From Pseudomonadota bacterium (GTDB taxonomy: Bacteria; Pseudomonadota; Gammaproteobacteria; Xanthomonadales; Ahniellaceae): 64,000 bases of DNA. Made by a program: the position numbers and the translations under genes. The notes beneath the pieces are model-generated. The model was not told the DNA's origin. It ran no database searches and worked only from the letters and a program-made list of their open reading frames with translations. Position 1 is the stretch's first letter. Each line of letters starts with the position of its first letter. Below are positions 7,833-58,490 of the stretch, in pieces. The DNA is taken from NCBI GenBank assembly GCA_022843465.1, contig JALHNO010000003.1, positions 184,955 through 248,954 of the forward strand, in the 5' to 3' direction.

Positions 7833-7907
7833 GGGTGCTTAGCTCAGCGGTAGAGCGTCGCCCTTACAAGGCGAGGGTCGGGGGTTCGAAACCCTCAGCA
7901 CCCACCA
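7833..7907 (+). tRNA. tRNA-Val(TAC)
   Basis: A 75-base cloverleaf with acceptor arms GGGTGCT/AGCACCC and encoded CCA. The anticodon loop CTTACAA gives anticodon TAC. It begins 12 bases after the HU stop codon with no terminator between, so it may be processed from the hup transcript. Confidence 0.96.
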
Positions 7908-7983
7908 GTTTCAAGGACGCATCCGCGAAGCAGTTCCGCACGAAATAACCGGAGGGTGACAGCTTCGGGGTATGCAAGAATAT

Positions 7984-8060
7984 GGAGTGGTAGTTCAGTC
8001 GGTTAGAATATCGGCCTGTCACGCCGAGGGTCGCGGGTTCGAGTCCCGTCCACTCCGCCA
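7984..8060 (+). tRNA. tRNA-Asp(GTC)
   Basis: A 77-base cloverleaf with acceptor arms GGAGTGG/CCACTCC and encoded CCA. The anticodon loop CTGTCAC gives anticodon GTC. An intrinsic terminator starts eight bases later. Confidence 0.96.
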
Positions 8061-30943: not shown

Positions 30944-30964
30944 TGGTTGATACTCCATGGGATT

Positions 30965-31056
30965 GAGCGGGCGCCGTTGGACAGACACCTGCCGAGCCTG
31001 GCTTCGCCTGCGCGGGGTGGATGCACCGGTGCGGGAAGTCGCAGCGCCCCTCGGCG
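30965..31056 (-). ncRNA. S-adenosylhomocysteine (SAH) riboswitch
   Basis: Read on the - strand, CCGAGGGGCGCTGCGAC (31054-31038) is followed by a hairpin, then CCAGGCTCGG, then AACGGCGCCCGCTC (30978-30965). These are the three conserved blocks of the SAH riboswitch: GGGCGC pairs with GCGCCC, and GCTCGG with CCGAGG. It ends 21 bases before the ahcY start, so control may be by access to the ribosome site. A -10-like TACAAT (31073-31068, - strand) sits about a dozen bases upstream and places the transcript start at the riboswitch edge. Confidence 0.9.
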
Positions 31057-31295
31057 GGCGGACCGACATTGTAACTGCCTAATGTGGATATCGCATGAAT
31101 CGAGTCTGCCCGCCGCCGCCGCTGCCACGGACCTGCCACGCGCCCAGGCGCTGTGCCGGAGACAGTTTCGCTGCCGCATGCCAATGATTGCGGCATAATG
31201 GCGGGGGCAAATCCATGCCGCATCTCAGTGATGCGTGAGAAATGAACGGGCGTGGCTGGCCGGGAGCGCACGTTTCGGCTAATCCGCTGAAGCGC

Positions 31296-44704: not shown

Positions 44705-45160
44705 GTGAGCACCTTGCATGTCCTGGTGTTTCCCTTGGCCGATCTGAGCATCGGTCTGCCACTCGGTGCGGTGGAACGTGTGCTGCAGGCGGCCGCGCTC
44801 AGTCCCTTGCCAGGGGCGCCGTCACTGATTCTTGGTCTTCTTGTGTTCCATGGCCGCGCCATCCCGGTCGGCGACACCCGATTGCGGTTCGCGCTGCCTC
44901 CGCGACCCTTGAGATCAGCGGACGTATTGATCCTTTGTCGCGGCGGATCGCGAAGCCTGGCCCTGCTGGCTGATGGGCTGCCGGAACTGCGCGTCTATGA
45001 CAACGATCGCGTTTTCGCGACCGCGAGTCTGGGCAAGCTGATCGCTCATATTCCTGGCGTGGTTCCCGGTCCGGACGGCTGTGTGCTGATCCACGATCTG
45101 GATCGGTTCATGTCATTCAGTGAACACGATCAGCTTGAGGAGGCGCTGCGCCATGTCTGA
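44705..45160 (+). CDS. CheW-like coupling protein, WspB-like position
   Basis: The 151-residue protein is one CheW domain (LVFPLADLSIGLPLGAVERVLQ, VLIHDLDRFMSF). It would link the methyl-accepting receptor to the CheA kinase. The start is a GTG at 44705 preceded by a G-rich site. It overlaps cheR by eight bases, so translation is coupled. It is the first gene of a seven-gene chemosensory operon. Confidence 0.8.
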   Translation: MSTLHVLVFPLADLSIGLPLGAVERVLQAAALSPLPGAPSLILGLLVFHGRAIPVGDTRLRFALPPRPLRSADVLILCRGGSRSLALLADGLPELRVYDNDRVFATASLGKLIAHIPGVVPGPDGCVLIHDLDRFMSFSEHDQLEEALRHV

Positions 45161-46631
45161 TGCCACGCTTCGCTCGATCGCGGCCGGTACCTGGTCGGCA
45201 CTGAGTGACCGCGTGGCTCAGCACATGGGGATCGATCACAGCAAGGGTCGACAGGACGACCTCGTTGCACGAATCATGGCGGCGACGCCGGGACTCGGCT
45301 ATGCCGATGTCGATGAATGTGTGAAAAACCTGCTGAACACGCCCTGGTCGTCTGCCCGCATACAGAAGCTGGCATCCCATCTCAGCGTACGCGAGACCTA
45401 TTTCTACCGCGAACTGGCGAGCTTGCGCGCATTGCAGGAGCAGGTCCTGCCTGCCCTGCTGGCCAGTCGCCGCGCACAGGGCCGACGCCTGCGGGTGTGG
45501 ACCGCCGGCTGTTGTACGGGTGAAGAGCCGTATTCGCTGGGGATCCTGCTGCACGAACTGCTGGCAGACATCGAGGGCTGGGATATTGAGATCCGTGCCA
45601 GCGACATCGACGAGCAGGCACTGCTGCGCGCCCGCGATGGCGAGTATGCGGCCTGGTCGTTCCGCGAATTGCCCGACGAGTTGAAGACGAGGTATTTCAC
45701 GGCGGCTGCGGGCAATCGCCATCGAATCGCACGCCGAGTGCACGATCTGGTCCGGTTCGAGTACCACAATCTGGCCGATCCGCTCGCGTTCGCTCGTACC
45801 ACTGCCAGTTACGATCTCATCCTGTGCCGTAATGTGCTGATCTATTTCGCTCCTGGCACTGTGCGCACGGTGCTGGATGGCCTGGCGGGGTCTCTCGTTC
45901 GGGATGGCTGGCTTGTGGTGGGCGCAGTCGAACTGTCGCTGGTCGACTCCTCTGGATTGGTCGCGGTCGCATTCGATGAATGCGTATTGCACCGGCGTTC
46001 GGACGAGTCTGGCCTGGACGCGGGCCCGACGGCAGCTTTGCACTTGACGACGACCCCGGAGGTGGCGGGACAGCGCACATCGGGCCGAACCGCTGCGCCA
46101 ATGCCGCAACGCCGCAGATTGCCGCAAGGGCGCATATCGGCAAGCCCGCGACCGGCTGGCGATTCGCTTCCGGCGGCCGGCGATGTCGCTGCGATGCCGT
46201 CCATACAGCCGACTGGTGCGCTGACGCCGCGGATCGATGCGATGGCGATGCGGGCCAGGGCCTGCGCCGATGCCGGGCAATGGGCAGACGCGCGTGACGC
46301 CTGCCTGAGCGGACTGCGATCGGCGCCTGAAGCTGTCGGGCTGCATGAAGTGCTCGCCATTGCGCTGCGCGAACTTGGTGAGATCGCGCCCGCGATCGCG
46401 CGTCTGCGGCGGGTGCTTTCGCTGGATCCCGGCAATTGGCGCGCCCATTACTGGTTGGGCCAGTGGCTGGGTCAGGTGGGGCGCAGGCGATCTGCGGTAC
46501 GTCATCTTCAACGGGCACTGGCCCTGATCGAGCATTTGGCCGAGAGCGGTCGCCAGCTTGAGGGGGGTGGACTGAGCCCAATCCTGGTTGTGGCTTCGAT
46601 ACGGGCGACGCTGGCGGCGCACAACAAATGA
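45153..46631 (+). CDS. CheR-type receptor methyltransferase with C-terminal TPR region, WspC-like
   Basis: The 492-residue protein has a CheR domain in residues 1-275: the all-helical N-terminal subdomain, RETYFYRE, the SAM-binding AGCCTGEEPYSLG, and LILCRNVLIYF. A low-complexity linker rich in Ala, Pro and Arg follows, then about 120 residues with TPR-like pairs (GQWADARDACLSGLRSAPEA, GEIAPAIARLRRVLSLDPGN). CheR proteins with a TPR tail are typical of Wsp and other alternative-function systems. It would methylate glutamates of the neighbouring receptor. It overlaps the next gene by four bases. Confidence 0.88.
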   Translation: MSDATLRSIAAGTWSALSDRVAQHMGIDHSKGRQDDLVARIMAATPGLGYADVDECVKNLLNTPWSSARIQKLASHLSVRETYFYRELASLRALQEQVLPALLASRRAQGRRLRVWTAGCCTGEEPYSLGILLHELLADIEGWDIEIRASDIDEQALLRARDGEYAAWSFRELPDELKTRYFTAAAGNRHRIARRVHDLVRFEYHNLADPLAFARTTASYDLILCRNVLIYFAPGTVRTVLDGLAGSLVRDGWLVVGAVELSLVDSSGLVAVAFDECVLHRRSDESGLDAGPTAALHLTTTPEVAGQRTSGRTAAPMPQRRRLPQGRISASPRPAGDSLPAAGDVAAMPSIQPTGALTPRIDAMAMRARACADAGQWADARDACLSGLRSAPEAVGLHEVLAIALRELGEIAPAIARLRRVLSLDPGNWRAHYWLGQWLGQVGRRRSAVRHLQRALALIEHLAESGRQLEGGGLSPILVVASIRATLAAHNK

Positions 46632-47272
46632 CGAGATCCCTTCATCAGCGTGAGCCGCAGCGTCGGCCCGTGGACTGGCAGGCGCTGCACGCGCGCCTTC
46701 GCGACGCGGTGGAGAAGGCCTCGGTCGCTGGTCGATTCGATGAGCACGCGGACCAGACCAGGCTGGCTGAGCGGGCGCGTCAGTTCGCGCAACTACCGGA
46801 AGTACAGGGGCCGCCAACAGAGCGCATCGACGTACTGGAATTCGAGCTGGGACGGGAGCGAATCGCGGTCGCCGCCTGCTTCGTCGCCACCGTCCAGGCT
46901 CTGCGGGTATTGACGCCGCTGCCGCGAACGCCGCCGCATATTCGCGGCATTGCCGATGTCCGCGGCAACCTGATCGCCGTGCTCGATCTTGGGCTATGGC
47001 TGCAGCTGCCGCGTCGCGGCATCACCCAGCTGGATCGGTTGATCGTGCTGCAGGCGCAGACCCGCCAGATCGCGGTGCTCGCTGATTGCGTCGCCGGCGT
47101 GCGAAGCCTGGAGCGCGCGCGGGTCAGGCAATACGACCATGGCAGCGGCGCGCTGAGCACGGTGGATGGCGCAGGCAGCGGAGGCAACCGTCTGCTGCTT
47201 GTCGATGTCGAGCACTTGCTGGCGAGTTCGGATCTTCTGCAGGTTCACCACAGCCATGGATTGTCAGGATAA
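46628..47272 (+). CDS. CheW-like coupling protein with N-terminal extension, WspD-like
   Basis: The 214-residue protein has an N-terminal helical region of about 65 residues followed by a CheW domain (IDVLEFELGRERIAVAA, RTPPHIRGIADVRGNLIAVLDL, LLLVDVEHLL). The N-terminal extension and its place after the TPR-CheR match WspD. The ATG overlaps the cheR stop (ATGA). Confidence 0.85.
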   Translation: MTRSLHQREPQRRPVDWQALHARLRDAVEKASVAGRFDEHADQTRLAERARQFAQLPEVQGPPTERIDVLEFELGRERIAVAACFVATVQALRVLTPLPRTPPHIRGIADVRGNLIAVLDLGLWLQLPRRGITQLDRLIVLQAQTRQIAVLADCVAGVRSLERARVRQYDHGSGALSTVDGAGSGGNRLLLVDVEHLLASSDLLQVHHSHGLSG

Positions 47273-47281
47273 GGAGGCTTC

Positions 47282-48919
47282 ATGCAATGGTTCCTCGATC
47301 TATCGACCCGAAGCAAGCTGGTGATCAGCTTTGCGGCCATGATCGCCTTGCTGATCGGCGTAAGCCTGGCCGGTTACCGTGGCGTCGCGGGCCTGCGCGC
47401 GGTGCAGGATGCGCTGCGCCAGCAAGAGTTTGCGACCGTGCTGGAGCTCAAGGATGTGCGCAGCCACCAGAATGCCATCCGCGCCAATGTCCTGATGCTG
47501 ATGCTGACCACCGATCCTGCTCAGCGTGAGGCCCTGCTGGCGGATACTGCGCTACGCGCAAAAGACAATGCGGCGTACATGCAGAGCCTGTTCCTCCGCA
47601 ACCGCGACGATCCTCAGCGGATGGCGCAGTTGAGAGCTTTCGAGGAGGTCCGTCTGGCCTTCGCCAGAACACGGGAGCAGGAGCTATTTCCCCTGGTACT
47701 GAAGGGTGATGTCGAGCAGGCGCGGAGCCTGGTGGGCGGAGTGCAGGAGGAACGCAACCAGCGCATGTCCGAGATCGCAGAGGCACTGGTTGCCGATAGT
47801 GAGGTCGCCGCTGCCTCGGCGGTCGCAGCATCACAGCGGCTGGCGGAGCAAACCCAGCGTTATCTGATTCTGAGTGCGGTCGTGGCACTGCTGCTCGGAC
47901 TTGGGCTGACCCTGTTGCTCAGCAAGCTGCTGGCGTCTCCGCTCAGTTCGCTCACTACCCTGGCCGAACGCACCGCCGAAGGCGACCTGACCGGTGCGCC
48001 GCCGGCGCGGGTACGGCGCGATGAGGCGGGTCGTCTGGAGCAGGCCATTGGGCGCATGCTGGCCAGTCTGCGCGCGGTATTGCAGGAACTGGGCGACGGT
48101 ATCCAAGTGCTCGCCACCGCTGCCGTCGAGATCAGCGCTTCTACCAGCCAGGTGGCTGCCGGGTCCTCGGAAACCGCGGCCGCAGTCGCGCAAACGGCGA
48201 CGACAGTAGAACAGCTCAAGCAGACTGCCCAATTGTCGGCGCAGAAGGCGAGGATGGTTTCGGACACTGCCCAGCGCACACTGCAGATATCGCAGGACGG
48301 ACGTGCCGCCACCCAGGAGTCGATGGAGGCGATGCAGCGCATCCAGGACGAAATGGCCAGTATGGCCGAGCATATGCTGCGGCTGTCCGAGCAGGGCAAT
48401 GCCATTGGCGACATCATCACCACGGTCGACGAGCTTGCTGAGCAATCCAATCTGCTGGCGGTGAATGCAGCGATCGAGGCTGCTCGTGCGGGCGATCAGG
48501 GCAAGGGATTCTCGGTGGTGGCGCAGGAAGTGAAGAGCCTGGCCGAGCAGTCGAAACAGGCGACTGCCCAGGTCCGGCGCATTCTCGGCGAGTTGCAAAA
48601 GGCGACAGCGAGTGCGGCGCTGGCGACCGAACAGGGCAATCGAGCGGTCGACACTGGAGCGCGCTGCTCTCTGGCCGTGGGCGAGACCATCACGCTCCTC
48701 AGCGAAAGCATCGCCGAGGCGGCCCAGGCAGCCGTGCAGATATCGGCCTCCGCGCAGCAACAAATGATCGGAATGGATCAGGTCTCGCTGGCCATCCAGA
48801 ATATCAATCAGGCGAGCATGCAAAACGTGGCAAGTACCCGGCAGTCCGAGACAGCGGCGCAGAATCTGCAGGGGCTGGGCGGCAAACTGAAGCGGCGCGT
48901 GGAGGGATTCCGTGTCTGA
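47282..48919 (+). CDS. Methyl-accepting chemotaxis protein, receptor of the operon
   Basis: The 545-residue protein has a membrane helix at about 13-35, a periplasmic four-helix-bundle-like domain (40-185), a second membrane helix (190-212), a HAMP domain and a long cytoplasmic signalling coiled coil. The hairpin tip reads [20 protein letters not shown], which contacts CheW and CheA. The C-terminus lacks an NWETF-type tether for CheR/CheB. AAGGAGG stands four bases before the ATG. In WspA the receptor gene comes first; here it is fourth. Confidence 0.92.
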
Positions 48920-48986
48920 GCGGCAACATCGAGAGCAGGCTTCTGCAGCTACGGCCGCGATCACACGTCGATGGACGCACGGCTGA

Positions 48987-51305
48987 ATGGAAAGGCGTGG
49001 CGGCGATCTCCAGCAGCGACTATTGACCATCTTCCGGGTGGAGGCGGAGGAGCATCTGCGCGAACTCGCGAAGGAGTTGCAGGATTTGGAATCCGGTCGC
49101 GAAGGAAGCGAGCGCCTTGAAACCGTGTTTCGAGCCATGCACAGCCTCAAGGGTGCGGCGCGCGCAGTTTCATTGCAGGAATTCGAGCGACTGGCACACG
49201 GAGCCGAAAACCTGCTTTCGGCAATGCGGCGCAAACTGGTGCCGCCTGATCATGCTGCGATCGCCGCGCTGATTGCCGTGGTCGATGCCTTGCAGCGGCA
49301 GGTTGCAACCATTTTCGACGCCAATGCGGCACCCGGGCCGGCGGTGGCCGCCCTGCTCCAGCGCATCGATGGATTGATGAGTCCTGAGCGTGCCACGAGT
49401 ACACCGACGCAAGCGCCGGCCGTTGCGAGTACGGGCGACCGCGAGGAAACGGAGCAGGCACCCGAAGCAACTGCCGAGCAACCAGAGCCCGTAGTTTCCT
49501 CGACCGCTGCGGCGTCCTTCGTACGGGTGGCAACCACGACCCTCGATGCGCTCTGGGCCGGGACCGATGCCTTTGTCTCTGCGCGTCTGGTGGCTGATCA
49601 GAGGCTCCAGGAGATTCAGCAACTCTGCGAAGTTGCGGCCGCATGGCGTAGCCAGCGCCAGCGTCAACGTCAACGCGTCGCATTCCGGCGAGGAAGCTCA
49701 CAGCGGCCTGCCAGACGCGCCGCCGGCAGTGCAGAGCCTGCCAGCATGTCCGGCGACGGTGGTTCCTCGCAGCGCTCCGCGATCGAAGAAGAGCATTATC
49801 TCAATGACGTTTCCGCGCGACTCGCCGCGCTGCAGCGATCGCTGCGGACCGATCAGCGCCATCTGTCCGGAATGATCGAGGCGCTGCGGGAAGGGATGAA
49901 GGACTGCCTTATGCAGCCGATTTCCGTGCTGATCGATGGCCTGCCATCTGTAGTGCGTGAGCTCGCGCGCAGCGAAGGCAAGGAGGTCAGATTGCTCAGT
50001 CAGGGCGGTGATTTTCAGGTGGATCGTCGCGTTGTGGATGGCCTGCGTACGCCCCTGATGCATCTGCTCAGAAACGCCGTGCACCATGGGATCGAATCGG
50101 GGGCAGCACGTCGCGCGACTGGCAAGGACGAGCAGGGCACCGTGCGCCTCGTCGCCAGTGCCGGCGCGTCCGCGACCCTTGAATTGCTGGTTGAAGACGA
50201 TGGCGCGGGTGTGGCACAGGCGGAGGTGCTGGCTGCGGCGCAGCGCATGCGCCAGCTACCGCAGGCAGCGGACTGTTCTGCAGCCTCGGCGCTCTCGCTG
50301 ATTTTCGAATCGGGCATTTCAACCAGTGATTCGATTGGACGCATTTCCGGTCGCGGCTTGGGTCTGGCCATCGCAAGGGAGAAGATCGAGCAGTTGGGTG
50401 GCTCGATCCAGGTCCGCTCGGAACCAGGGATGGGCTGCAGTTTCCATATCCAGGTTCCGCTGACACTGGCCAATTTTCGCGGCGTACTGGTGCGCACGGC
50501 CGGGCGCTTGTTCATCCTGCCGACTGCGCAGGTGCGCCGCTGTCTGCGTGTTGATGGTGCCCAGATCACCCAGATCGAGGGTCGGCTGACCGTCGAGTGG
50601 ATGCAGCGGGTGCTGTCTCTGCATGCGCTGTCGGAATTGCTCGGACTGCCAGCGTCGCGTCACCCGTTGTGCAAAGCCGGGACATCGCGCCTGCTCGTGC
50701 TGTTGCAGGCAGCCGAGATGCCCATGGTCGCCTTCGAAGTCGATGAGGTCATTGCCGAGCAGGAAGTGCTGCTCAAACTTCTGGCCTGGCCGCTCCAGCG
50801 ACTGCCCCATGTGATGGGTGCGACCCTGCTCGGCGATGGTCAGTGGGTGCCTGTACTGCACCCGGCCGATCTGGTGCGCGCGGCGAACGGTGCGATACGC
50901 ACGCTGTCCATGCGGACGGACCAGGATCTTGATCCAGCGCGCGTACCGACAATTCTGGTTGTCGAGGATTCGTACACCGCGCGCGCCATGTTGCAGGCTG
51001 TGCTTGAATCCGCCGGGTATCAGGTGCTGACCGCAGTGGACGGCGTGGACGCGCTCCAGCGGTTGGCGTCAGTAGAGGTCGATGTCCTGGTGTCCGATGT
51101 CGAGATGCCGCGCCTGAATGGCTTCGATCTCAGCGTGCAGGTGCGCCACACGCCTGGGCTGGAGCACCTGCCCATCATTCTGGTCACTGCGCTGGAGTCT
51201 CCCGAACAGCGCGCTCGCGGTGCCGAGGTCGGTGCCAATGCATATCTCGTGAAGAGCAGCTTCGATGACCGAAACCTGCTGGACACCGTGGCGGCACTGC
51301 TATGA
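48987..51305 (+). CDS. CheA-type histidine kinase with C-terminal receiver, WspE-like
   Basis: The 772-residue protein has an Hpt domain with H52 in AMHSLKGAAR, an Ala/Glu/Arg-rich linker, a dimerisation helix pair, an ATPase domain (LMHLLRNAVHHGIE, RISGRGLGLAIAREKIE), a CheW-like domain (FRGVLVRTAGRLFILP) and a fused receiver with D704 in LVSDVEMPRL. No P2 CheY-docking domain is seen. This is the WspE/FrzE layout. H52 would pass phosphate to its own receiver, to CheB and probably to the receiver of the last gene. An in-frame stop lies directly before the ATG, which fixes the start. Confidence 0.92.
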   Translation: MERRGGDLQQRLLTIFRVEAEEHLRELAKELQDLESGREGSERLETVFRAMHSLKGAARAVSLQEFERLAHGAENLLSAMRRKLVPPDHAAIAALIAVVDALQRQVATIFDANAAPGPAVAALLQRIDGLMSPERATSTPTQAPAVASTGDREETEQAPEATAEQPEPVVSSTAAASFVRVATTTLDALWAGTDAFVSARLVADQRLQEIQQLCEVAAAWRSQRQRQRQRVAFRRGSSQRPARRAAGSAEPASMSGDGGSSQRSAIEEEHYLNDVSARLAALQRSLRTDQRHLSGMIEALREGMKDCLMQPISVLIDGLPSVVRELARSEGKEVRLLSQGGDFQVDRRVVDGLRTPLMHLLRNAVHHGIESGAARRATGKDEQGTVRLVASAGASATLELLVEDDGAGVAQAEVLAAAQRMRQLPQAADCSAASALSLIFESGISTSDSIGRISGRGLGLAIAREKIEQLGGSIQVRSEPGMGCSFHIQVPLTLANFRGVLVRTAGRLFILPTAQVRRCLRVDGAQITQIEGRLTVEWMQRVLSLHALSELLGLPASRHPLCKAGTSRLLVLLQAAEMPMVAFEVDEVIAEQEVLLKLLAWPLQRLPHVMGATLLGDGQWVPVLHPADLVRAANGAIRTLSMRTDQDLDPARVPTILVVEDSYTARAMLQAVLESAGYQVLTAVDGVDALQRLASVEVDVLVSDVEMPRLNGFDLSVQVRHTPGLEHLPIILVTALESPEQRARGAEVGANAYLVKSSFDDRNLLDTVAALL

Positions 51306-52390
51306 ACCAAGCGCAGGCACGCGGGCGAATCAGGGTAATGGTGGTCGATGACTCCGCGATCGTACGCGAACTGCTGACGCACCTGCTTGGCTGCGATCCC
51401 GGCATCCAGTTGGTCGGGGTGGCCGGCAATGGCCGTGATGCGGTACGGATCGCGGCGCTGTGCCGGCCCGAGGTCATCACCATGGACTTCCACATGCCGG
51501 CGATGAACGGTCTCGATGCAACCCGTCAGATCATGCAGACCTGCCCGGTACCGATCGTCATCGTCGCTGGAAGTTCGGTTCGCGGGGAGCGCAACGCAGC
51601 TTTCCAGTTGTTCGAGGCCGGCGCCCTGGCGATTGTCGACAAGCCGCCCGGGCCGGAACATCCAGGCCATGCTGCGGCCGCGCGCCACTTCGTGCAGACA
51701 GTCAAGCTGATGTCCGAGGTGCGTGTGCTGAGGTTCTGGCCGAAGTCGTCGGTATCCGCACTACAGACCCCGAAACGCCCGGGGCGCGCAACGCCCGCTG
51801 GCCGGCCAAAGCTGGTCGCAGTGGGGGCCTCCACGGGTGGGCCCCTGGTGCTGAAGAATCTGTTGACCCGCCTGGGGGCCGGGTTTCCACTTCCGGTGGT
51901 CATTGTCCAGCACATAGCCAGCGGGTTTGCCCAGGGGTTCGCGGAATGGCTGTCGCAGGCCTCCGGCTTTCCGGTGGAGCTGATGGTGCATGGCATGTCC
52001 CTGCGACCGGGGCACGCCTACGTTGCACCCGACCATCGCCACGTACGCATCACCGCCGAGCTTGGTATTGAACTGTACGAGGGCGCTGCCCTGCACGGTC
52101 ACAGTCCGTCGATAACGAAGTTGTTCCGCTCGGTTGCCGTGGCTCTGGGCAGTCAAGGCATTGGCATCCTGCTGTCGGGCATGGGCCGTGACGGGGCTGA
52201 TGGCTTGCTGGCGATGCGCCAGAGCGGGGCATGCACCGTGGTGCAGCAGCCCGAGAGTTGTGTTGTCGACAGCATGCCGGCAGAGGCATTGCTGCTGGAT
52301 GCGGCGCTGCACGTCCTTCCCCCCGACGACATGGCGGTGCTGCTGCGCTCGTTGTCCGATTGCATGCGAGAAAACCATGACGATAGCTGA
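51302..52390 (+). CDS. CheB receptor methylesterase with receiver domain, WspF-like
   Basis: The 362-residue protein has an N-terminal receiver (D62 in ITMDFHMPAMNG) and a C-terminal methylesterase with the triad S177 in GASTGGP, H204 in IVQHI and D297 in GMGRDGADG. Phosphorylated CheB removes methyl groups from the receptor and resets the signal. The ATG overlaps the cheA stop (ATGA), and the end overlaps the next gene by 14 bases. Confidence 0.94.
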   Translation: MNQAQARGRIRVMVVDDSAIVRELLTHLLGCDPGIQLVGVAGNGRDAVRIAALCRPEVITMDFHMPAMNGLDATRQIMQTCPVPIVIVAGSSVRGERNAAFQLFEAGALAIVDKPPGPEHPGHAAAARHFVQTVKLMSEVRVLRFWPKSSVSALQTPKRPGRATPAGRPKLVAVGASTGGPLVLKNLLTRLGAGFPLPVVIVQHIASGFAQGFAEWLSQASGFPVELMVHGMSLRPGHAYVAPDHRHVRITAELGIELYEGAALHGHSPSITKLFRSVAVALGSQGIGILLSGMGRDGADGLLAMRQSGACTVVQQPESCVVDSMPAEALLLDAALHVLPPDDMAVLLRSLSDCMRENHDDS

Positions 52391-54629
52391 CCACTACACG
52401 CCGCGCGACGCGGAAATCCTGATTGCCGAGGACAGCGCAACCCAGGCGGAATTGCTGCGCTATATCCTGGAAGAACGTGATTATCCGGTCGTCAGTGCCA
52501 GCAACGGACAACAGGCACTGCGGGCGGCGCGCGCGCGCAAGCCGGCCCTGATCATCAGCGACATCGTGATGCCCGAAATGGATGGGTATGCCCTGTGCAG
52601 GGCGGTCAAGAGTGACCCGGAGTTGCGTGACATACCCGTCATCCTGGTGACCACGCTGTCCAATTCCGAAGATGTCGTGCACGGGCTCGAATGCGGCGCC
52701 GACAACTTCATCCGCAAGCCTTACGAAGCGCAGTATCTGCTGGCCAGGGTCGAGCAGATGCTGACAACGTACGCACTGCGCCGCGGGCGGAATCCCGCTG
52801 CCGGTGTCGAGATCGACGTCGGCGGACGACGGCATTTCATCAGTGCTGATCGCCAGCAGATACTCGACCTTTTGATCTCGACCTATGAGCAGGCGATCCA
52901 CATCAACTCGGAGTTGAACAGCAAGCAGGGGGCGCTGGATGCGTCCACCCAGATGCTGCTTGGCCTGTACCGGTTCTCCGAAGGGCTCAATCGCGCCGTC
53001 GGCGTCAGGGAGGTCGCAGCGGTTGCGCTCGACCGCGCATTGGAGCTGCCTGGTGTTGCCTCGTGCTGGCTGTTTCTGCGCGGAATCCACGGCGAAGTGC
53101 GACTGGTCGACTCACGCAATCTGCCGGATGAGCTGGCTGCGGATGCTGCTATGGCAGGCAACTGCCACTGCCTCGAACAGTTGGCCGAGGGAAGTCTGGA
53201 TACGGCCGTCAATATCCAGCGTTGCGACCGCCTGGCCCGCTGCGCGCGTCAGCCGACAGACCCCGCCTGCCATGCCAGCGTACCCCTGCGCAAGGGCGAA
53301 CGCCGGCTTGGCGTGATGAATCTGATCGCCGATTCACCCGGGCCGTTCGGCCCGCAGACCCTCTCGGTCTTGCAGGGTGTCGGACACCAGATTGCCGCCG
53401 CACTCGATCGTGCCAGTCTGCACGAGGAACTCGAACTGATGGTCGCTCAGCGTACAGCGTCCCTGTCTGCCGAAGTGCGCGCACGAAAGCAGGCCGAGAG
53501 CCAGTTGCGCCAGGCCAACGAACTGCTCGCCGCGACGCAGTCGGTCGGTCACGTTGGCGGCTGGGAGTGGGATCTCGACAGGGAATTCGTTCACTGGACC
53601 GCCGAGCTCTATCGATTGCTCGATACCGAGCCCGAGCGCTACACGCCGACACTGGACAATCGATCAGACTTTATGACCGCGGATGCCTGGGCCGAACTGC
53701 AGCGGGCGTTTGCCGACTCTGCGGCTGGCGAGGGATTCGATGTCGAACTGGAGATGCGTACCGCAACTGGCCGCAGCATATGGGCGCGCGTCCAGGGCCG
53801 GGTGCGCTGGCGCGACGGTGAACTGGTGCATTGCGTTGCGGCGCTGCAGGACATCAGTGAACGTCGCCGCACCGAGGCCGTGCTCAAGAAGACCCTGGAA
53901 GATCTCAGTGCGCGCAATGTCGAGTTGCGTGACTTCGCTTTTGTCGCATCACACGACCTGCAGGAGCCGCTTCGCAAGATACGTACCTTCTGCGATCGAC
54001 TGCTGATCCGCTGTGGCCACCTTATTGATGAGACAGCACACGACTATCTGGCGCGCAGCATGCGCGCTACCGAGCGCATGCAGGCGCTGATCGACGACCT
54101 GCTTGCGTACTCGCACCTGGACGCGTACGCCCGGAGCTTCGCGCTGGTTGATCTCGATGTGGTGGTCCGTCAGGTGGTCGACGATCTTGAAACCCGGATC
54201 GAGAGCAGCGGAGGCCAGGTCGTGGTCGGCGTGCTGCCTACGCTGGAGGGCGATGCCACACAACTCGGTCAGGTGTTCCAGAATCTGATCGCCAACGCGC
54301 TCAAGTTCTGTCCACCCGAGCGCACTCCGGTGGTCGAGCTTTCAGCTACCCGACAAGTGCAGGAAGGTCTGGAGCCGCACTGGATCATCCGCGTCGATGA
54401 CAATGGGATCGGTTTCGCTGAACAACATGTTGAGCGGATCTTTGCTCCGTTTCAGCGATTGCACGGTGTCGGAGAGTACGCGGGCACCGGATTCGGACTG
54501 ACGATCGTGCGACGTATCATCAGCCGACATCACGGTCAGGTGCATGCCGAGGGGCGGCCGGGTGAAGGTGCCAGTTTCATCATCACCTTGCCGGAGCGGC
54601 AGCCCAGGCCCCAATCGGGCATCGGGTAG
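52377..54629 (+). CDS. Soluble REC-GAF-PAS histidine kinase, probable output of the chemosensory operon
   Basis: The 750-residue protein starts with a receiver (D62 in LIISDIVMPEMDG, conserved K in FIRKPYE). A GAF domain (about 190-345) carries a run of cysteines: C263-H-C265, C283, C289, C298-H. A PAS domain (387-490), a HisKA with H526 in ASHDLQEPLRKI, and an ATPase domain (LIANALKF, VDDNGIGF, GTGFGLTIVRRI) follow. There is no membrane segment. The HDLQEPLR box is of the phytochrome-kinase type. It replaces the WspR diguanylate cyclase expected at this place. The ATG at 52377 is inside the end of cheB, so translation is coupled. Its own downstream partner is not in the window. Confidence 0.88.
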   Translation: MTIADHYTPRDAEILIAEDSATQAELLRYILEERDYPVVSASNGQQALRAARARKPALIISDIVMPEMDGYALCRAVKSDPELRDIPVILVTTLSNSEDVVHGLECGADNFIRKPYEAQYLLARVEQMLTTYALRRGRNPAAGVEIDVGGRRHFISADRQQILDLLISTYEQAIHINSELNSKQGALDASTQMLLGLYRFSEGLNRAVGVREVAAVALDRALELPGVASCWLFLRGIHGEVRLVDSRNLPDELAADAAMAGNCHCLEQLAEGSLDTAVNIQRCDRLARCARQPTDPACHASVPLRKGERRLGVMNLIADSPGPFGPQTLSVLQGVGHQIAAALDRASLHEELELMVAQRTASLSAEVRARKQAESQLRQANELLAATQSVGHVGGWEWDLDREFVHWTAELYRLLDTEPERYTPTLDNRSDFMTADAWAELQRAFADSAAGEGFDVELEMRTATGRSIWARVQGRVRWRDGELVHCVAALQDISERRRTEAVLKKTLEDLSARNVELRDFAFVASHDLQEPLRKIRTFCDRLLIRCGHLIDETAHDYLARSMRATERMQALIDDLLAYSHLDAYARSFALVDLDVVVRQVVDDLETRIESSGGQVVVGVLPTLEGDATQLGQVFQNLIANALKFCPPERTPVVELSATRQVQEGLEPHWIIRVDDNGIGFAEQHVERIFAPFQRLHGVGEYAGTGFGLTIVRRIISRHHGQVHAEGRPGEGASFIITLPERQPRPQSGIG

Positions 54630-54668: not shown

Positions 54669-56978
54669 TCAGGGATTGTCGATCCTGATCTGGATCGGAT
54701 AGTAGGCGCCCGAAAGTTCGGCGGCGTCGAAATGGTAGGTTTCGTCTCCGTAGCTCGGCACACTCTTCATACCGGACGGCGTGCTCGCCTGAACAAAGAG
54801 GTCATAGTCCCCGTTGGGTATGCCCACAGTTTCCAGATCAAGCCGGTAGCGTCCTTGTGGCGCAGGGGCGTCCACCGCGGTTTCGAGCAGCAGCACGCGT
54901 TCGCCGGGGCCGCTACCGCTACCTGACGGACGCAGGAACACTTCGATCCGCGCTATGCCTGTGGTGCCACCGGCACTCCATAGCTCGGAGCTGACCACAG
55001 GCACATGCATCAATTGCGGTGCCCAGCCCGCCCAACTGCGGTTGCCCACTTCAATGTTCAGAGGAACCAATCCGCTCACATCGATTCGTTCTATCGGGTT
55101 GGCACCCAGATGATGGCTGTCTCCGATGTCGGTACCTGCAATGCGTTGAAAACGCGCGGGAGGGGCGAGTCGAGGCAATTCGGCATGCAAGGGGAAGTGA
55201 TGGATGGACGAAGGCGGCGTATACGCTGGCGCACTACCGGGTGGATAGAGCACCTCGACGTGCACATTCATCAGCCCGCTGTTTTCAGCGAAGAACTGGA
55301 ACACGTTGTTGCCCACCAGCAATGGCGAGGCACCTGCTGTGGTGATGTCGCCCAATTTGATCCTGGCTGTATGCGGGACGCCCCACGCCATCAGATTCGG
55401 ATTCAGCGGCGTGCTGTTGTTGCGTGGCAGGGGCAACAGGTACTGGGCGCTGCCATTGAGTCGGACGAAATCGGTAGGCAGGATATCGAGATTTGAATAG
55501 TCGCCCATCTGGTAGGTCAGCACCAGCCAGGCCTCGGCGGTGACGTTCGATGCCGTGGGATGCAGGTCGTCGGGTATGTTGACGGTGAAGCGCGGAAACT
55601 GGTTGTTGCCGCGCGAGGCCTTCTGGTAGTCGCTGCCCTCGATCCGGGTCACATAGTTGTGCACGACGCGGGAATCGACAACGGGGCCATCGAAGCCGAA
55701 GTTGTCCCAGTGCACGAGGTAATAGGGATTGGCATCCTTTGCCGTGTTGTAGCCGAATCCGACCCAGAGCAACTCGTAGTCGGCGGCGGCGAATGCGTAA
55801 GGTGCGTAACTGGTGTTTATCACGCTGAGTCCATCAACGAAAATCTGCACGCCGTCGGTTCCGACCCGAACGTCGTAGTTTCGGCGGACATTCGACACGA
55901 CCTGGCGTCCGACACTCTCCAGATCAACACTGGCCAGCTGGTGCGCAGCGCCTTGCATATCGATCAGACTGACGCTCAGCGACTGGTGCGCGGCACGCAA
56001 CCGCAGAATCCCGGCTGGAAGTCCGAGCGCGCCTTCCTCATCGAAGAAACTCGCATGACCGGTCAACTCGGAGGCAATCGGATTGAGATCGAGATACCAG
56101 ACCGAGCGCGGGCTCAACGGTGCGTCCATATCGAACACGATGCGGCGGCGCACGCCATGTTCGACGCGCAACTTCTTGCGGAACCTCTGCGCGGTCTGCG
56201 ATTTGTCGCCAGTGTTGTCGACCCGTGTGCCGTTCAGCGTATGCGCGTGATACTGGTCATTGATGAAGAAGAGATTGAAGCGTGGATCGGTCGAGTTGAC
56301 GCTGGCGTTGTTCCAGAGTTTTTCGTCAGCGGCGCCGATCGGCAGATTGAAATCATCGAAATAGGTCAGGGCACTGCGCAACGCGGCGACCCGCGTCCCG
56401 TCGCCGCCGTTGAAGTTCAATTCGACCGAATGGCTGGTGATGGCGCCGAGGGCATTGAGGCGTTCCACCCGAACCGTATAGGGCGTGTCATTGAGCAGCG
56501 GCTGGATCTGCACTCGACGATTGCCGGTAACCAGCCAACGGGCGCCTGGAGGGGGCGCAGCTTTGTTGCTGTGCGCGGTCGTGCGCATCGGTGCGCGCAG
56601 GTGATCCGGGTTCAGGCAGCTGCCACCACCATCATTGCCGGCGATGGCACGGGCCTTCTCCAGCGTGGAGCCAGCCTGAGGCCACCAGGTGACCAGAAAG
56701 CCGGCGTCATCTTCGGGCGATCCGCTCATGACCCAGAACTGGCCCCAGGGACTCTCGGCGTTGTAGTCCATCTCGAGGGTGGCCACGCGGTCGTCGCGCA
56801 GCACGCGCAGCACCGGAGCCGGCTGCAGCGGCGCGCCTTCGAAGCCATCTGAAAACAGGGTCTGGGCGTGCAAGGGAAGGCTGGCAGCTGCACACCAGAC
56901 CAGGGCAAACAGTTGGCAGGCGGAGCGCCAGGGCAATTGCCGGGGCAAATGGGGGCGGGCATGGAGAAAACTGATCAT
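54669..56978 (-). CDS. Secreted protein with concanavalin/LamG-like region, function unknown
   Basis: The 769-residue protein has a signal peptide (hydrophobic QLFALVWCAAASLPLHA) followed by LFSDGFEG, a start common among secreted proteins of this bacterial group. The middle part (about 220-470) is beta-rich with FDDFNLPIGAADEKLWNN, YDVRVGTDGVQIFVDGL and HWDNFGFDGPV, which resembles a lectin-like jelly roll. The C-terminal part looks like tandem beta-sandwich modules ending with an Ig-like domain (IEVFLRPSGSGSG, NGDYDLFVQAS). AGGA precedes the ATG. Likely roles are carbohydrate binding or degradation, but no catalytic motif was recognised. It is divergent from the decarboxylase. Confidence 0.72.
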   Translation of the reverse strand: MISFLHARPHLPRQLPWRSACQLFALVWCAAASLPLHAQTLFSDGFEGAPLQPAPVLRVLRDDRVATLEMDYNAESPWGQFWVMSGSPEDDAGFLVTWWPQAGSTLEKARAIAGNDGGGSCLNPDHLRAPMRTTAHSNKAAPPPGARWLVTGNRRVQIQPLLNDTPYTVRVERLNALGAITSHSVELNFNGGDGTRVAALRSALTYFDDFNLPIGAADEKLWNNASVNSTDPRFNLFFINDQYHAHTLNGTRVDNTGDKSQTAQRFRKKLRVEHGVRRRIVFDMDAPLSPRSVWYLDLNPIASELTGHASFFDEEGALGLPAGILRLRAAHQSLSVSLIDMQGAAHQLASVDLESVGRQVVSNVRRNYDVRVGTDGVQIFVDGLSVINTSYAPYAFAAADYELLWVGFGYNTAKDANPYYLVHWDNFGFDGPVVDSRVVHNYVTRIEGSDYQKASRGNNQFPRFTVNIPDDLHPTASNVTAEAWLVLTYQMGDYSNLDILPTDFVRLNGSAQYLLPLPRNNSTPLNPNLMAWGVPHTARIKLGDITTAGASPLLVGNNVFQFFAENSGLMNVHVEVLYPPGSAPAYTPPSSIHHFPLHAELPRLAPPARFQRIAGTDIGDSHHLGANPIERIDVSGLVPLNIEVGNRSWAGWAPQLMHVPVVSSELWSAGGTTGIARIEVFLRPSGSGSGPGERVLLLETAVDAPAPQGRYRLDLETVGIPNGDYDLFVQASTPSGMKSVPSYGDETYHFDAAELSGAYYPIQIRIDNP

Positions 56979-57215
56979 GATCCGGTTCCTGCGCGGTGCC
57001 GGGCAAGCATGCTCTGGACTTCGCCCAGATACTTCGACCTGTTCGACAGCTTGTGCGGAAGTCGGGGCGAAAGCGTGCGCTGGTGCACAGGACCGCCGCC
57101 GGACAGCTGCTGAATGAGGTTGACCGTCGTCCCGGAACGCATATTGCGGACCCCGAGAATCTCCAGGATGATCCGCGCCAGTCCGTCCCCTCCCTCCAAC
57201 CGGCTTCCCCGCCCA

Positions 57216-58490
57216 ATGACCCAGCCCTGGTGGCAACACGATAGCCACACCGTTTTAGATGACGACATCCTGATCGACGGACATTCACTGACCCAACTGG
57301 CAAGGCAGCATGGCACGCCACTGTACGTATACAGTCGCGAAACCGTGCAGCGGCAGTTGCGCAAGATGCAGACTGCACTCGCCGCAGTGCGCATGCCGCA
57401 CCGCATCTACTATGCGATGAAATCCAACCGTCATCCCGGCGTCCTGCGGGCAATACGGGATCTCGGCGATGTCGGGATCGATACCTGTTCGCCGCGCGAA
57501 GTGGAGCTCGCTCTGGCCGCCGGTTTCGCTCCTGAGGAAATCTCCTTCAACGCGGGCATGCTGTCGACTGCCGAGCTGGCCTATCTCGCAGCCAGCGGCG
57601 TGCATTGCACACTTGATACCCTGTCCGGCTTGCGCCGCTATGCCGCCCTCGTTCCGGCCGGGACGGCAGTCGGGTTGCGCTTCAACCCCGGTGTACGCGT
57701 CGGCTATGGCGACAATCCCAAGATGGCCTATGGCGATTCGAAGTTCGGTTTCGAACCTGATGGGCTTGAACAAATTCTGGAAACGGTGGCCGCGCTGGGC
57801 TTGCGGGTCGATGCCGTCCACATGCATATCGGTTGGGGTCTGACCCAGAACAGCGTGCCCCAGGTCGCCAAGGCATTCAGCCGACTTGCCGAGATCGGTC
57901 GCCAGATCGACGGGTTGAAATACATCAATGTCGGCGGGGGCCTGGGTGCGCGCTACGTAGAGGCCGATCAGCCGCTGGAACTGTCGTCCTGGGCCACCCT
58001 GATCGCCGAGATTCTCGGCCCACTCGGGGCCACGATCTGGTGCGAGCCAGGCACCTTTGTCTCGGCCTCGTCGGGCATGTTGGTGGTCGAGGCCAATACC
58101 ACCGAGGCACGCCGCGGCGTAACCTGGCTTGGCGTCAACGCCGGTTTTGCGATCAATCCCAATCCTTCGATGTATGGAATCGCGTTGACCGCACTCGCGC
58201 TGCAGCAGCCGCGGGCCGAGGCCGCGCATGCCTATACGATTGCCGGAAATATCAATGAATCTGGCGACATCTGGGGGCGCGACATGATGCTGCCCTTGAT
58301 CCAGGAAGGCGAACTGGTCGCATTCTTTCCAGCCGGCGCCTACGGATCGAGCATGGCCAGTGATCACTGCCTGCGTGGGAAGGCAAGCGAAGTGATGCTG
58401 GAAACGATCGCCTTTCCGATACCCGCAATCCAGAACGTACTGGCTATAGCGGAACAGGGACTCCCTGGTGCCGGTTCCTGTGCGGCTTGA
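57216..58490 (+). CDS. Fold-III PLP-dependent decarboxylase, LysA-like
   Basis: The 424-residue protein belongs to the ornithine/diaminopimelate/arginine decarboxylase family. The PLP lysine is K69 in YYAMKSNRHP, the glycine loop is INVGGGLGARY, and the C-terminal GELVAFFPAGAYGSSMASDH resembles LysA. Two positions differ from ordinary diaminopimelate decarboxylase: HIGWG replaces HIGSQ, and NESGD (N347) replaces CESGD, where the cysteine normally enters the neighbouring active site. So the substrate may not be diaminopimelate. The ATG at 57216 is chosen as the one just before the domain; no strong ribosome site is seen. Confidence 0.75.
   Translation: MTQPWWQHDSHTVLDDDILIDGHSLTQLARQHGTPLYVYSRETVQRQLRKMQTALAAVRMPHRIYYAMKSNRHPGVLRAIRDLGDVGIDTCSPREVELALAAGFAPEEISFNAGMLSTAELAYLAASGVHCTLDTLSGLRRYAALVPAGTAVGLRFNPGVRVGYGDNPKMAYGDSKFGFEPDGLEQILETVAALGLRVDAVHMHIGWGLTQNSVPQVAKAFSRLAEIGRQIDGLKYINVGGGLGARYVEADQPLELSSWATLIAEILGPLGATIWCEPGTFVSASSGMLVVEANTTEARRGVTWLGVNAGFAINPNPSMYGIALTALALQQPRAEAAHAYTIAGNINESGDIWGRDMMLPLIQEGELVAFFPAGAYGSSMASDHCLRGKASEVMLETIAFPIPAIQNVLAIAEQGLPGAGSCAA

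Follow-up and report, generated by a model that had tools for sequence, protein, structure and literature searches.

A non-motility chemosensory operon in an Ahniellaceae genome with a mosaic receiver-histidine kinase as its probable output

The 64,000-nucleotide stretch of Ahniellaceae DNA analysed here (assembly GCA_022843465.1, contig JALHNO010000003.1, positions 184,955 to 248,954; hereafter the window) contains, at 44705-54629, a seven-gene chemosensory operon of the alternative cellular function (ACF), or non-motility, type, whose last gene encodes a mosaic histidine kinase. From the relationships of these proteins we consider it fairly likely that the array modulates a resident-type kinase circuit through the receiver of this last protein. 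Because the protein joins a receiver half of the operon's own class to a kinase half of the type found in its genus, the probable role of the array is to control a second kinase rather than to make a second messenger. All seven genes are intact and open and, by Pfam, encode CheW, CheR-TPR, a second CheW, a receptor, CheA with a fused receiver (CheA-REC), CheB and a soluble kinase with receiver, GAF and PAS domains (REC-GAF-PAS; Table 1). The successive intergenic spacings are -8, -4, +9, +67, -4 and -14 bp, the largest gap being 67 bp. An initial annotation made from the letters alone had described seven overlapping or nearly abutting genes of this content, with the receptor fourth, WspR missing and a receiver-kinase as last product, all of which the domain assignments bear out.

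The last protein is very probably a mosaic, in which the front of a chemosensory output is joined to a kinase half like those of kinases in its own genome and genus. Segment scores against chemosensory outputs and against a paralogue set (kinases of the same genome and family, with four from a class sample added) were 170 versus 55 bits for residues 1-140, 75 versus 1 for 141-205 and 118 versus 5 for 206-350, whereas the paralogue set led the outputs with 69 versus 21 bits for residues 480-540, 116 versus 43 for 505-620 and 137 versus 98 for 620-745, placing the switch between residues 350 and 480. The PAS stretch (395-500) scored 32 bits with the paralogue set and 19 with the chemosensory outputs. 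In the class sample of 339 genomes the front half (1-350), that is the longer receiver-linker-GAF module, had five matches in four other genomes, all five beside CheA hits in this one sample. The kinase half, searched in the same sample, matched best two kinases of its own genome (265 and 261 bits), followed by kinases of four other genomes (215-234 bits) with kinase halves 47-52% identical.

The kinase half carries a domain of the HDLQEPLR type. In a kinase-domain tree of 43 rows it fell in a four-row clade (support 97/92) whose other members are two own-genome kinases and one of the same genus, and the approximately unbiased (AU) test rejected its union with the outputs of L012, L013, L227 and L229 (p = 1.9e-6) and with those of L011, L031, L042 and L180 (p = 3.1e-12). 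The kinase trees took outputs with a kinase stretch of more than 150 residues at E <= 1e-5, which admitted 25 of the 30 other kinase outputs (L014, L052, L181, L186 and L191 were not entered), and the 43-row tree was also built without two WspH rows. Over the 65 residues of the H-box region the window kinase shares 40 with its paralogue on contig C40 and 42 with that on C21, and these two are the closest own-genome paralogues of its kinase half. A search with the whole kinase in 61 genomes, its own included, found matches in four at E <= 1e-60, of full length in its own genome only, and under this cut-off all matches in relatives start at residue 371 or later. By descent the last gene is judged to be no substitute for WspR, its front deriving from another operon class and its back from a resident-type kinase. 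No report of this mosaic was met in the open-access literature searched on output domain shuffling, on CheR-TPR and ACF systems, on Wsp-like systems, and on ACF gene order with GGDEF.

Table 1. Genes of the chemosensory operon and subdivisions of its last gene (window coordinates)
Feature	Position	Strand	Description
cheW1	44705..45160	+	CheW adaptor, 151 aa, preferred start GTG 44705; Pfam CheW 1.2e-16
cheR-TPR	45153..46631	+	receptor methyltransferase with C-terminal TPRs, 492 aa, preferred start ATG 45153; Pfam CheR 5.1e-47, TPR_2 3.6e-10
cheW2	46628..47272	+	214 aa, ~65-residue N-terminal extension; Pfam CheW 2.7e-21, residues 69-200
mcp (receptor)	47282..48919	+	545 aa; Pfam 4HB_MCP_1, HAMP, MCPsignal (4-helix-bundle sensor)
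cheA-REC	48987..51305	+	772 aa; Pfam Hpt-HATPase_c-CheW-Response_reg; Hpt H52, C-terminal receiver D704
cheB	51302..52390	+	362 aa; Pfam Response_reg-CheB_methylest (CheB_methylest 1.7e-55)
REC-GAF-PAS histidine kinase	52377..54629	+	750 aa, soluble, output candidate, preferred start ATG 52377; Pfam Response_reg-GAF-PAS_3-HisKA-HATPase_c
kinase front half	52377..53426	+	residues 1-350: receiver, helical linker, GAF with C-x-C...C; chemosensory-output type
junction zone	53427..53816	+	about residues 351-480, most of PAS; leans to resident-type kinases
kinase half	53877..54611	+	residues 501-745: HDLQEPLR H-box H526, HATPase; resident-kinase type

The catalytic and phospho-acceptor motifs of the operon are kept (H52 and D704 of CheA, D62 and S177 of CheB, receiver D62 and H526 of the kinase). 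Strong membrane segments are confined to the receptor (hydropathy peaks 2.45 and 2.75, about residues 13-31 and 195-213), and the kinase peaks at 1.21. Pfam found no WspR, CheY or CheZ among the seven proteins. In a scan for promoters and terminators the site counts stayed below the shuffle means (1 versus 1.5 and 2 versus 5.0). The next gene-sized frame past the kinase, 54669-57248, lies on the opposite strand, and no stand-alone receiver gene follows.

The relatives of the operon came from a kinase scan of named genome contigs, from CheA searches and from named genomes or records. The CheA search found 30 of 398 genomes in a phylum sample (E <= 1e-85) and 17 of 369 in a class sample, the window's own genome included in both. 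Of the 91 CheA-REC loci, 86 were analysed after the duplicates L019, L020 and L136 and the short L013 and L134 were left out; many of these rows end at contig or fetch limits. The exact order CheW, CheR, CheW, receptor, CheA, CheB (W-R-W-M-A-B) occurs in 26 of the 86 rows, the window included, and recurs too often to be a product of chance; three further rows have a second receptor gene (W-R-W-M-M-A-B). The outputs in the 26 rows are ten kinases (the window's among them), seven GGDEF-EAL proteins, three GGDEF proteins and two others, with none found in four. Because the rows are biased towards relatives of the window proteins, these counts of orders and outputs are not population frequencies. 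In the loci having a match-bearing gene after cheB, the next such gene carries a receiver in 67 of 69, in a scan that detects only genes matching the queries used.

Exchanges between kinases and cyclic di-GMP (c-di-GMP) enzymes at this position look recurrent, since at least eight switches are needed on the CheA tree (60 rows), or seven with Wsp excluded (48 rows). Pfam assigned nine related outputs as REC-GAF...GGDEF-EAL in L009 (Gallionella), L010 (Sideroxydans), L016, L018, L226 and L228 and as receiver kinases in L012, L033 and L227. A second set of ten comprised kinases in L180, L191, L187, L039 and L195, GGDEF or GGDEF-EAL proteins in L207 and L023, a REC-PAS protein in L036 and outputs cut off in L015 and L186. 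The operons of Gallionella, Sideroxydans, Pseudomonas, Stutzerimonas and Rhodanobacter (L009, L010, L017-L023, L033) share the W-R-W-M-A-B order and a receiver-bearing output after cheB, except that L017 has two receptor genes and L021 lacks a receptor match, but their outputs differ, being REC-GAF...GGDEF-EAL in the first four genera and REC-kinase-REC-Hpt in Rhodanobacter. Separately, six GGDEF-EAL outputs after cheB (L009, L010, L016, L017, L226 and L228, five of them covered by Pfam) retain the EAL motif and lack GG[DE]EF, which suggests phosphodiesterase outputs. The Sideroxydans genome G062 (L101, L114, L128, L135, L136) encodes CheA proteins 39-40% identical to that of the window at three places. 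On the 103-kb plasmid pMIT1002 of Alteromonas macleodii a W-R-(hypothetical)-W-M-A-B cluster (L134:6161-13083) is accompanied by response regulator genes on the other strand, and a plasmid of this kind is a possible vehicle for moving such arrays.

In the proposed wiring, the membrane receptor with its four-helix-bundle sensor, tuned by CheR-TPR and CheB, would set the activity of CheA, which could then phosphorylate its own receiver (likely a sink or brake), CheB and D62 in the receiver of the kinase. Autophosphorylation at H526 would then rise or fall with the phosphorylation of D62 and with cytoplasmic signals reaching the GAF and PAS domains, and the kinase would act on regulators encoded elsewhere, most plausibly the small receivers paired with its two closest paralogues. 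The array, whose nearest sampled relatives act on c-di-GMP enzymes, would through this splice be connected to a resident two-component circuit. Of 15 aligned front halves, 13 have the C-x-C motif and third cysteine of the GAF domain (the window at 52377-53426, L009, L010, L012-L014, L017, L018, L022, L023 and L226-L228; absent from L015 and L016), and all 15 have the histidine that follows. In the window kinase the cysteines are C263, C265 and C283; that they form a metal or redox site is a guess.

The kinases at C21 (L145:1259-8668) and C40 (L144:895-4713) are multi-PAS/GAF proteins with open frames of 2470 and 1273 aa; each, like a kinase at C9, adjoins a small receiver gene, the three kinases being the best own-genome relatives of the window kinase. 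No other protein of the genome matches the C21 regulator as well as these three receivers do. Such pairs of an HDLQEPLR kinase and a small regulator we take to resemble Cph1/Rcp1, in which respect the window kinase, having no adjacent receiver, departs. As the paralogues adjoin receivers and the window kinase does not, sharing of the C21 and C40 regulators is a reasoned guess, and their role as its targets is put forward tentatively. The wiring so predicted is one in which regulators are shared with two paralogous kinases. A broader scenario, in which a mobile array was rewired by a single splice that replaced a c-di-GMP catalytic half with a host-genus kinase and so captured host kinase/small-regulator circuits, is equally tentative; if true, an imported array, possibly with a redox-sensitive GAF domain, would share its regulators with two large PAS/GAF kinases.

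Several results weigh against control of a resident-type circuit through the kinase receiver. The junction is not sharp, residues 345-415 being nearly tied (26 versus 24 bits), and the case for an imported front half comes from the class and phylum samples together with the whole-kinase search of relatives. No regulator gene lies beside the window kinase, and the three small Rcp-like regulators already have kinases of their own. CheA has alternative acceptors in its own receiver and CheB. The receiver with its linker (residues 1-199) had 56 matches in 26 of 396 phylum-sample genomes, own included, of which 19 lay within 6 kb of a CheA hit (E <= 1e-85) and 37 did not, a few of the latter sitting 7-12 kb from a CheA hit on the same contig. 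Orphan REC-kinases occur in seven Duganella, Pseudoduganella and Massilia loci (L024-L030), where their frames begin at about 9.6-10.0 kb; they are 57-60% identical to the window protein over about residues 9-184, and the DNA fetched for these loci showed no che gene. Since 37 of the 56 matches lie away from strong CheA hits and such orphan kinases exist, a receiver of this type is no proof of coupling to CheA, and its use as a diagnostic of such coupling was rejected. We nevertheless regard it as likely that CheA acts through D62 of the kinase receiver.

The relation to Wsp depends on whether parts or ancestry are considered. The Wsp parts are present (CheR-TPR, two CheW, and CheA with a receiver); two CheW plus CheA-REC are also common in the non-Wsp loci examined. 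The receptor is fourth here, whereas it precedes cheW and cheR in the Wsp references for which that end was fetched (wspA-B-C-D-E-F), and a REC-GAF-PAS kinase lies 3' in place of a WspR-type REC-GGDEF 3' or a WspH 5' of wspA. In a CheA-only quick tree (95 rows) 12 Wsp-type CheAs formed one clade (Shimodaira-Hasegawa-like approximate likelihood ratio test, SH-aLRT, 100), and grouping of the window with Wsp was not rejected (AU p = 0.1). A concatenated tree of CheA, CheB, CheR and receptor was restricted to systems with CheB, CheR and receptor all in reach (48 systems, 1023 columns) and supersedes an earlier one with a single Wsp row. It joined ten Wsp rows in one clade (SH-aLRT 100) with the window outside, and strict Wsp membership was rejected against these ten reference systems (AU p = 6.8e-10). 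The window grouped instead (six rows, SH-aLRT 95) with four GGDEF-EAL systems of Pseudomonas/Stutzerimonas and with L015, a Rhodocyclaceae system whose output is cut off. Because this tree sets the window outside the Wsp clade, the operon is not a Wsp member; judged by its components the array works like the Wsp type, and the likeness proposed in the initial annotation holds for the parts list and fails for ancestry. It is accordingly highly improbable that the operon represents a strict H-system of Wsp (WspH type) in which the genes have been rearranged. In favour of this reading, the operon has the same parts and a REC-kinase output like that of Burkholderia WspH (PMC8552884), and the CheA-only test does not reject it. 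Besides the concatenated tree, however, a very long branch (3.68 changes per column) sets the two WspH-type kinases apart, and their genes lie 5' of the receptor gene in the two Burkholderia loci, as against an output 3' of cheB and a receptor in fourth place here.

The output could alternatively be a regulator encoded elsewhere, with the seventh protein a side branch or phosphate sink. CheA-type kinases can serve several receivers, and the genome does contain an isolated REC-GGDEF protein, of the kind used by Wsp systems, as a WspR-like candidate (G000:C9:173479-174558, L269:9480-10559; 360-aa open frame). This is unlikely, however, given that the 19 kb fetched around that gene revealed no che gene, that its product matches a Pseudomonas WspR-type query at 36% over query residues 61-345 (part of the receiver plus GGDEF; other, stronger matches cover the GGDEF part only), that the match-bearing gene after cheB so regularly carries a receiver, and that the kinase gene overlaps cheB. 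A reverse flow, in which the soluble kinase drains or feeds array phosphate through its receiver, GAF and PAS domains instead of being a target, is quite unlikely. The GAF and PAS domains would give the kinase its own sensing, and receivers can drain phosphate, that attached to CheA3 of Rhodospirillum centenum being a sink according to PMC3868531; the same paper states, however, that CheS3 does not phosphorylate the CheA3 receiver and that genetics places CheS3 downstream, and related operons fuse the same front module to GGDEF-EAL, from which we infer that they have no kinase to return phosphate. Finally, the mosaic would be a sampling artefact if equally close kinases were common outside the family, in which case the kinase half need not be resident. 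The half was searched in one class sample (339 genomes) and the whole kinase in one sample of relatives (61), the four other class genomes have kinase halves of 47-52% identity, and five of the 30 other kinase outputs stayed outside the tree. This is nonetheless improbable, as the own-genome paralogues outscore all four, and the window kinase lies inside the same-genus clade and those four outside it. Modulation of a resident-type kinase circuit through the receiver is the reading we prefer.

Flagellar control of the array is unlikely, because the Flagellin_N profile has no match in the window's own genome (5.18 Mb, 45 contigs, 99.99% complete) and the only other cluster with CheB and CheA reads as Pil-Chp. 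As a control, this profile matched four of 14 well-known genomes. CheB_methylest occurs in two places, this operon and C2:252797, and CheA is likewise encoded twice (E <= 1e-20), the other copy, a frame of 2268 aa that contains several Hpt domains, adjoining CheW, receptor and CheR matches; this other cluster we take to be Pil-Chp or Pil-Chp-like. The window CheA belongs to a group of 46 rows (SH-aLRT 99) that includes neither the four presumed-flagellar rows (those without a fused receiver) nor the Chp-type rows (long, multi-Hpt), and by CheA ancestry the operon belongs to neither the flagellar nor the type IV pilus class. The initial annotation's expectation that motility control is unlikely, CheY and CheZ being missing, agrees with this, and the CheA phylogeny and gene-neighbourhood search that it proposed gave the separate CheA group and the recurrent gene order, the latter with a kinase output in ten of 26 rows.

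Other features of the window include an S-adenosylhomocysteine (SAH) riboswitch at 30962-31058 on the minus strand (55 bits, gathering score 37) and two clusters of tRNA genes, one of six genes at 413-1166 and one of two at 7833-8060.

That a chemosensory array can end in a kinase is already known from the kinase outputs, phosphotransfer and proposed cascade described in PMC3447774, PMC3868531 and PMC8552884, and the operon is of a widespread known type. ACF clusters with kinase outputs were reported in 2012, and the passages of PMC3447774 concerned describe CheR-TPR clusters as accompanied by multidomain response regulators, around 40% of which carry a kinase module. The window operon has, by its domain content, both components in one cluster. 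The final kinase, correctly placed by the initial annotation, is on this account no oddity, kinase outputs making up a large share of such clusters. The ACF clusters share with it the CheR-TPR and receiver-histidine kinase outputs, some with GAF or PAS domains; the same passages do not describe the W-R-W-M-A-B order or a mosaic output origin. PMC2577667 likens Geobacter CheA/Y clusters to the Frz cluster, P. aeruginosa cluster 3 and R. centenum cluster 3.

The last of these, the Che3 system (CheA3-CheS3-CheY3), likewise has CheA-REC and a second receiver-PAS kinase in one cluster, and PMC3868531 describes phosphorylation of REC1 of CheS3 by CheA3. The residues needed for a transfer of this type from CheA to the kinase are present in the window proteins. 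In CheS3 two receivers are combined with an HWE kinase domain, and CheY3 lies in the cluster, whereas the window kinase has one receiver, a GAF domain and a HisKA/HDLQEPLR kinase, with no CheY. For the Burkholderia Wsp H-system, PMC8552884 proposes as target WspH/WspHRR, a REC-kinase without GGDEF that feeds an unlinked regulator, the one proposed in PMC4324302 and later called RowR; wsp mutants showed no significant change in c-di-GMP, and the data set as presented there includes no H-system with a 3' regulator. WspH differs from the window system in its clade on the concatenated tree, its gene order and its distant kinase half, and two WspH-type proteins gave no GAF or PAS match with the queries and profiles used, whereas the window kinase has both. 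The operon thus illustrates one route by which ACF outputs may change, in which the enzyme half is swapped, here for a resident-type kinase, with array and receiver retained, and the present results add loci outside Burkholderia and Wsp in which the array appears to end in a kinase 3' of cheB.

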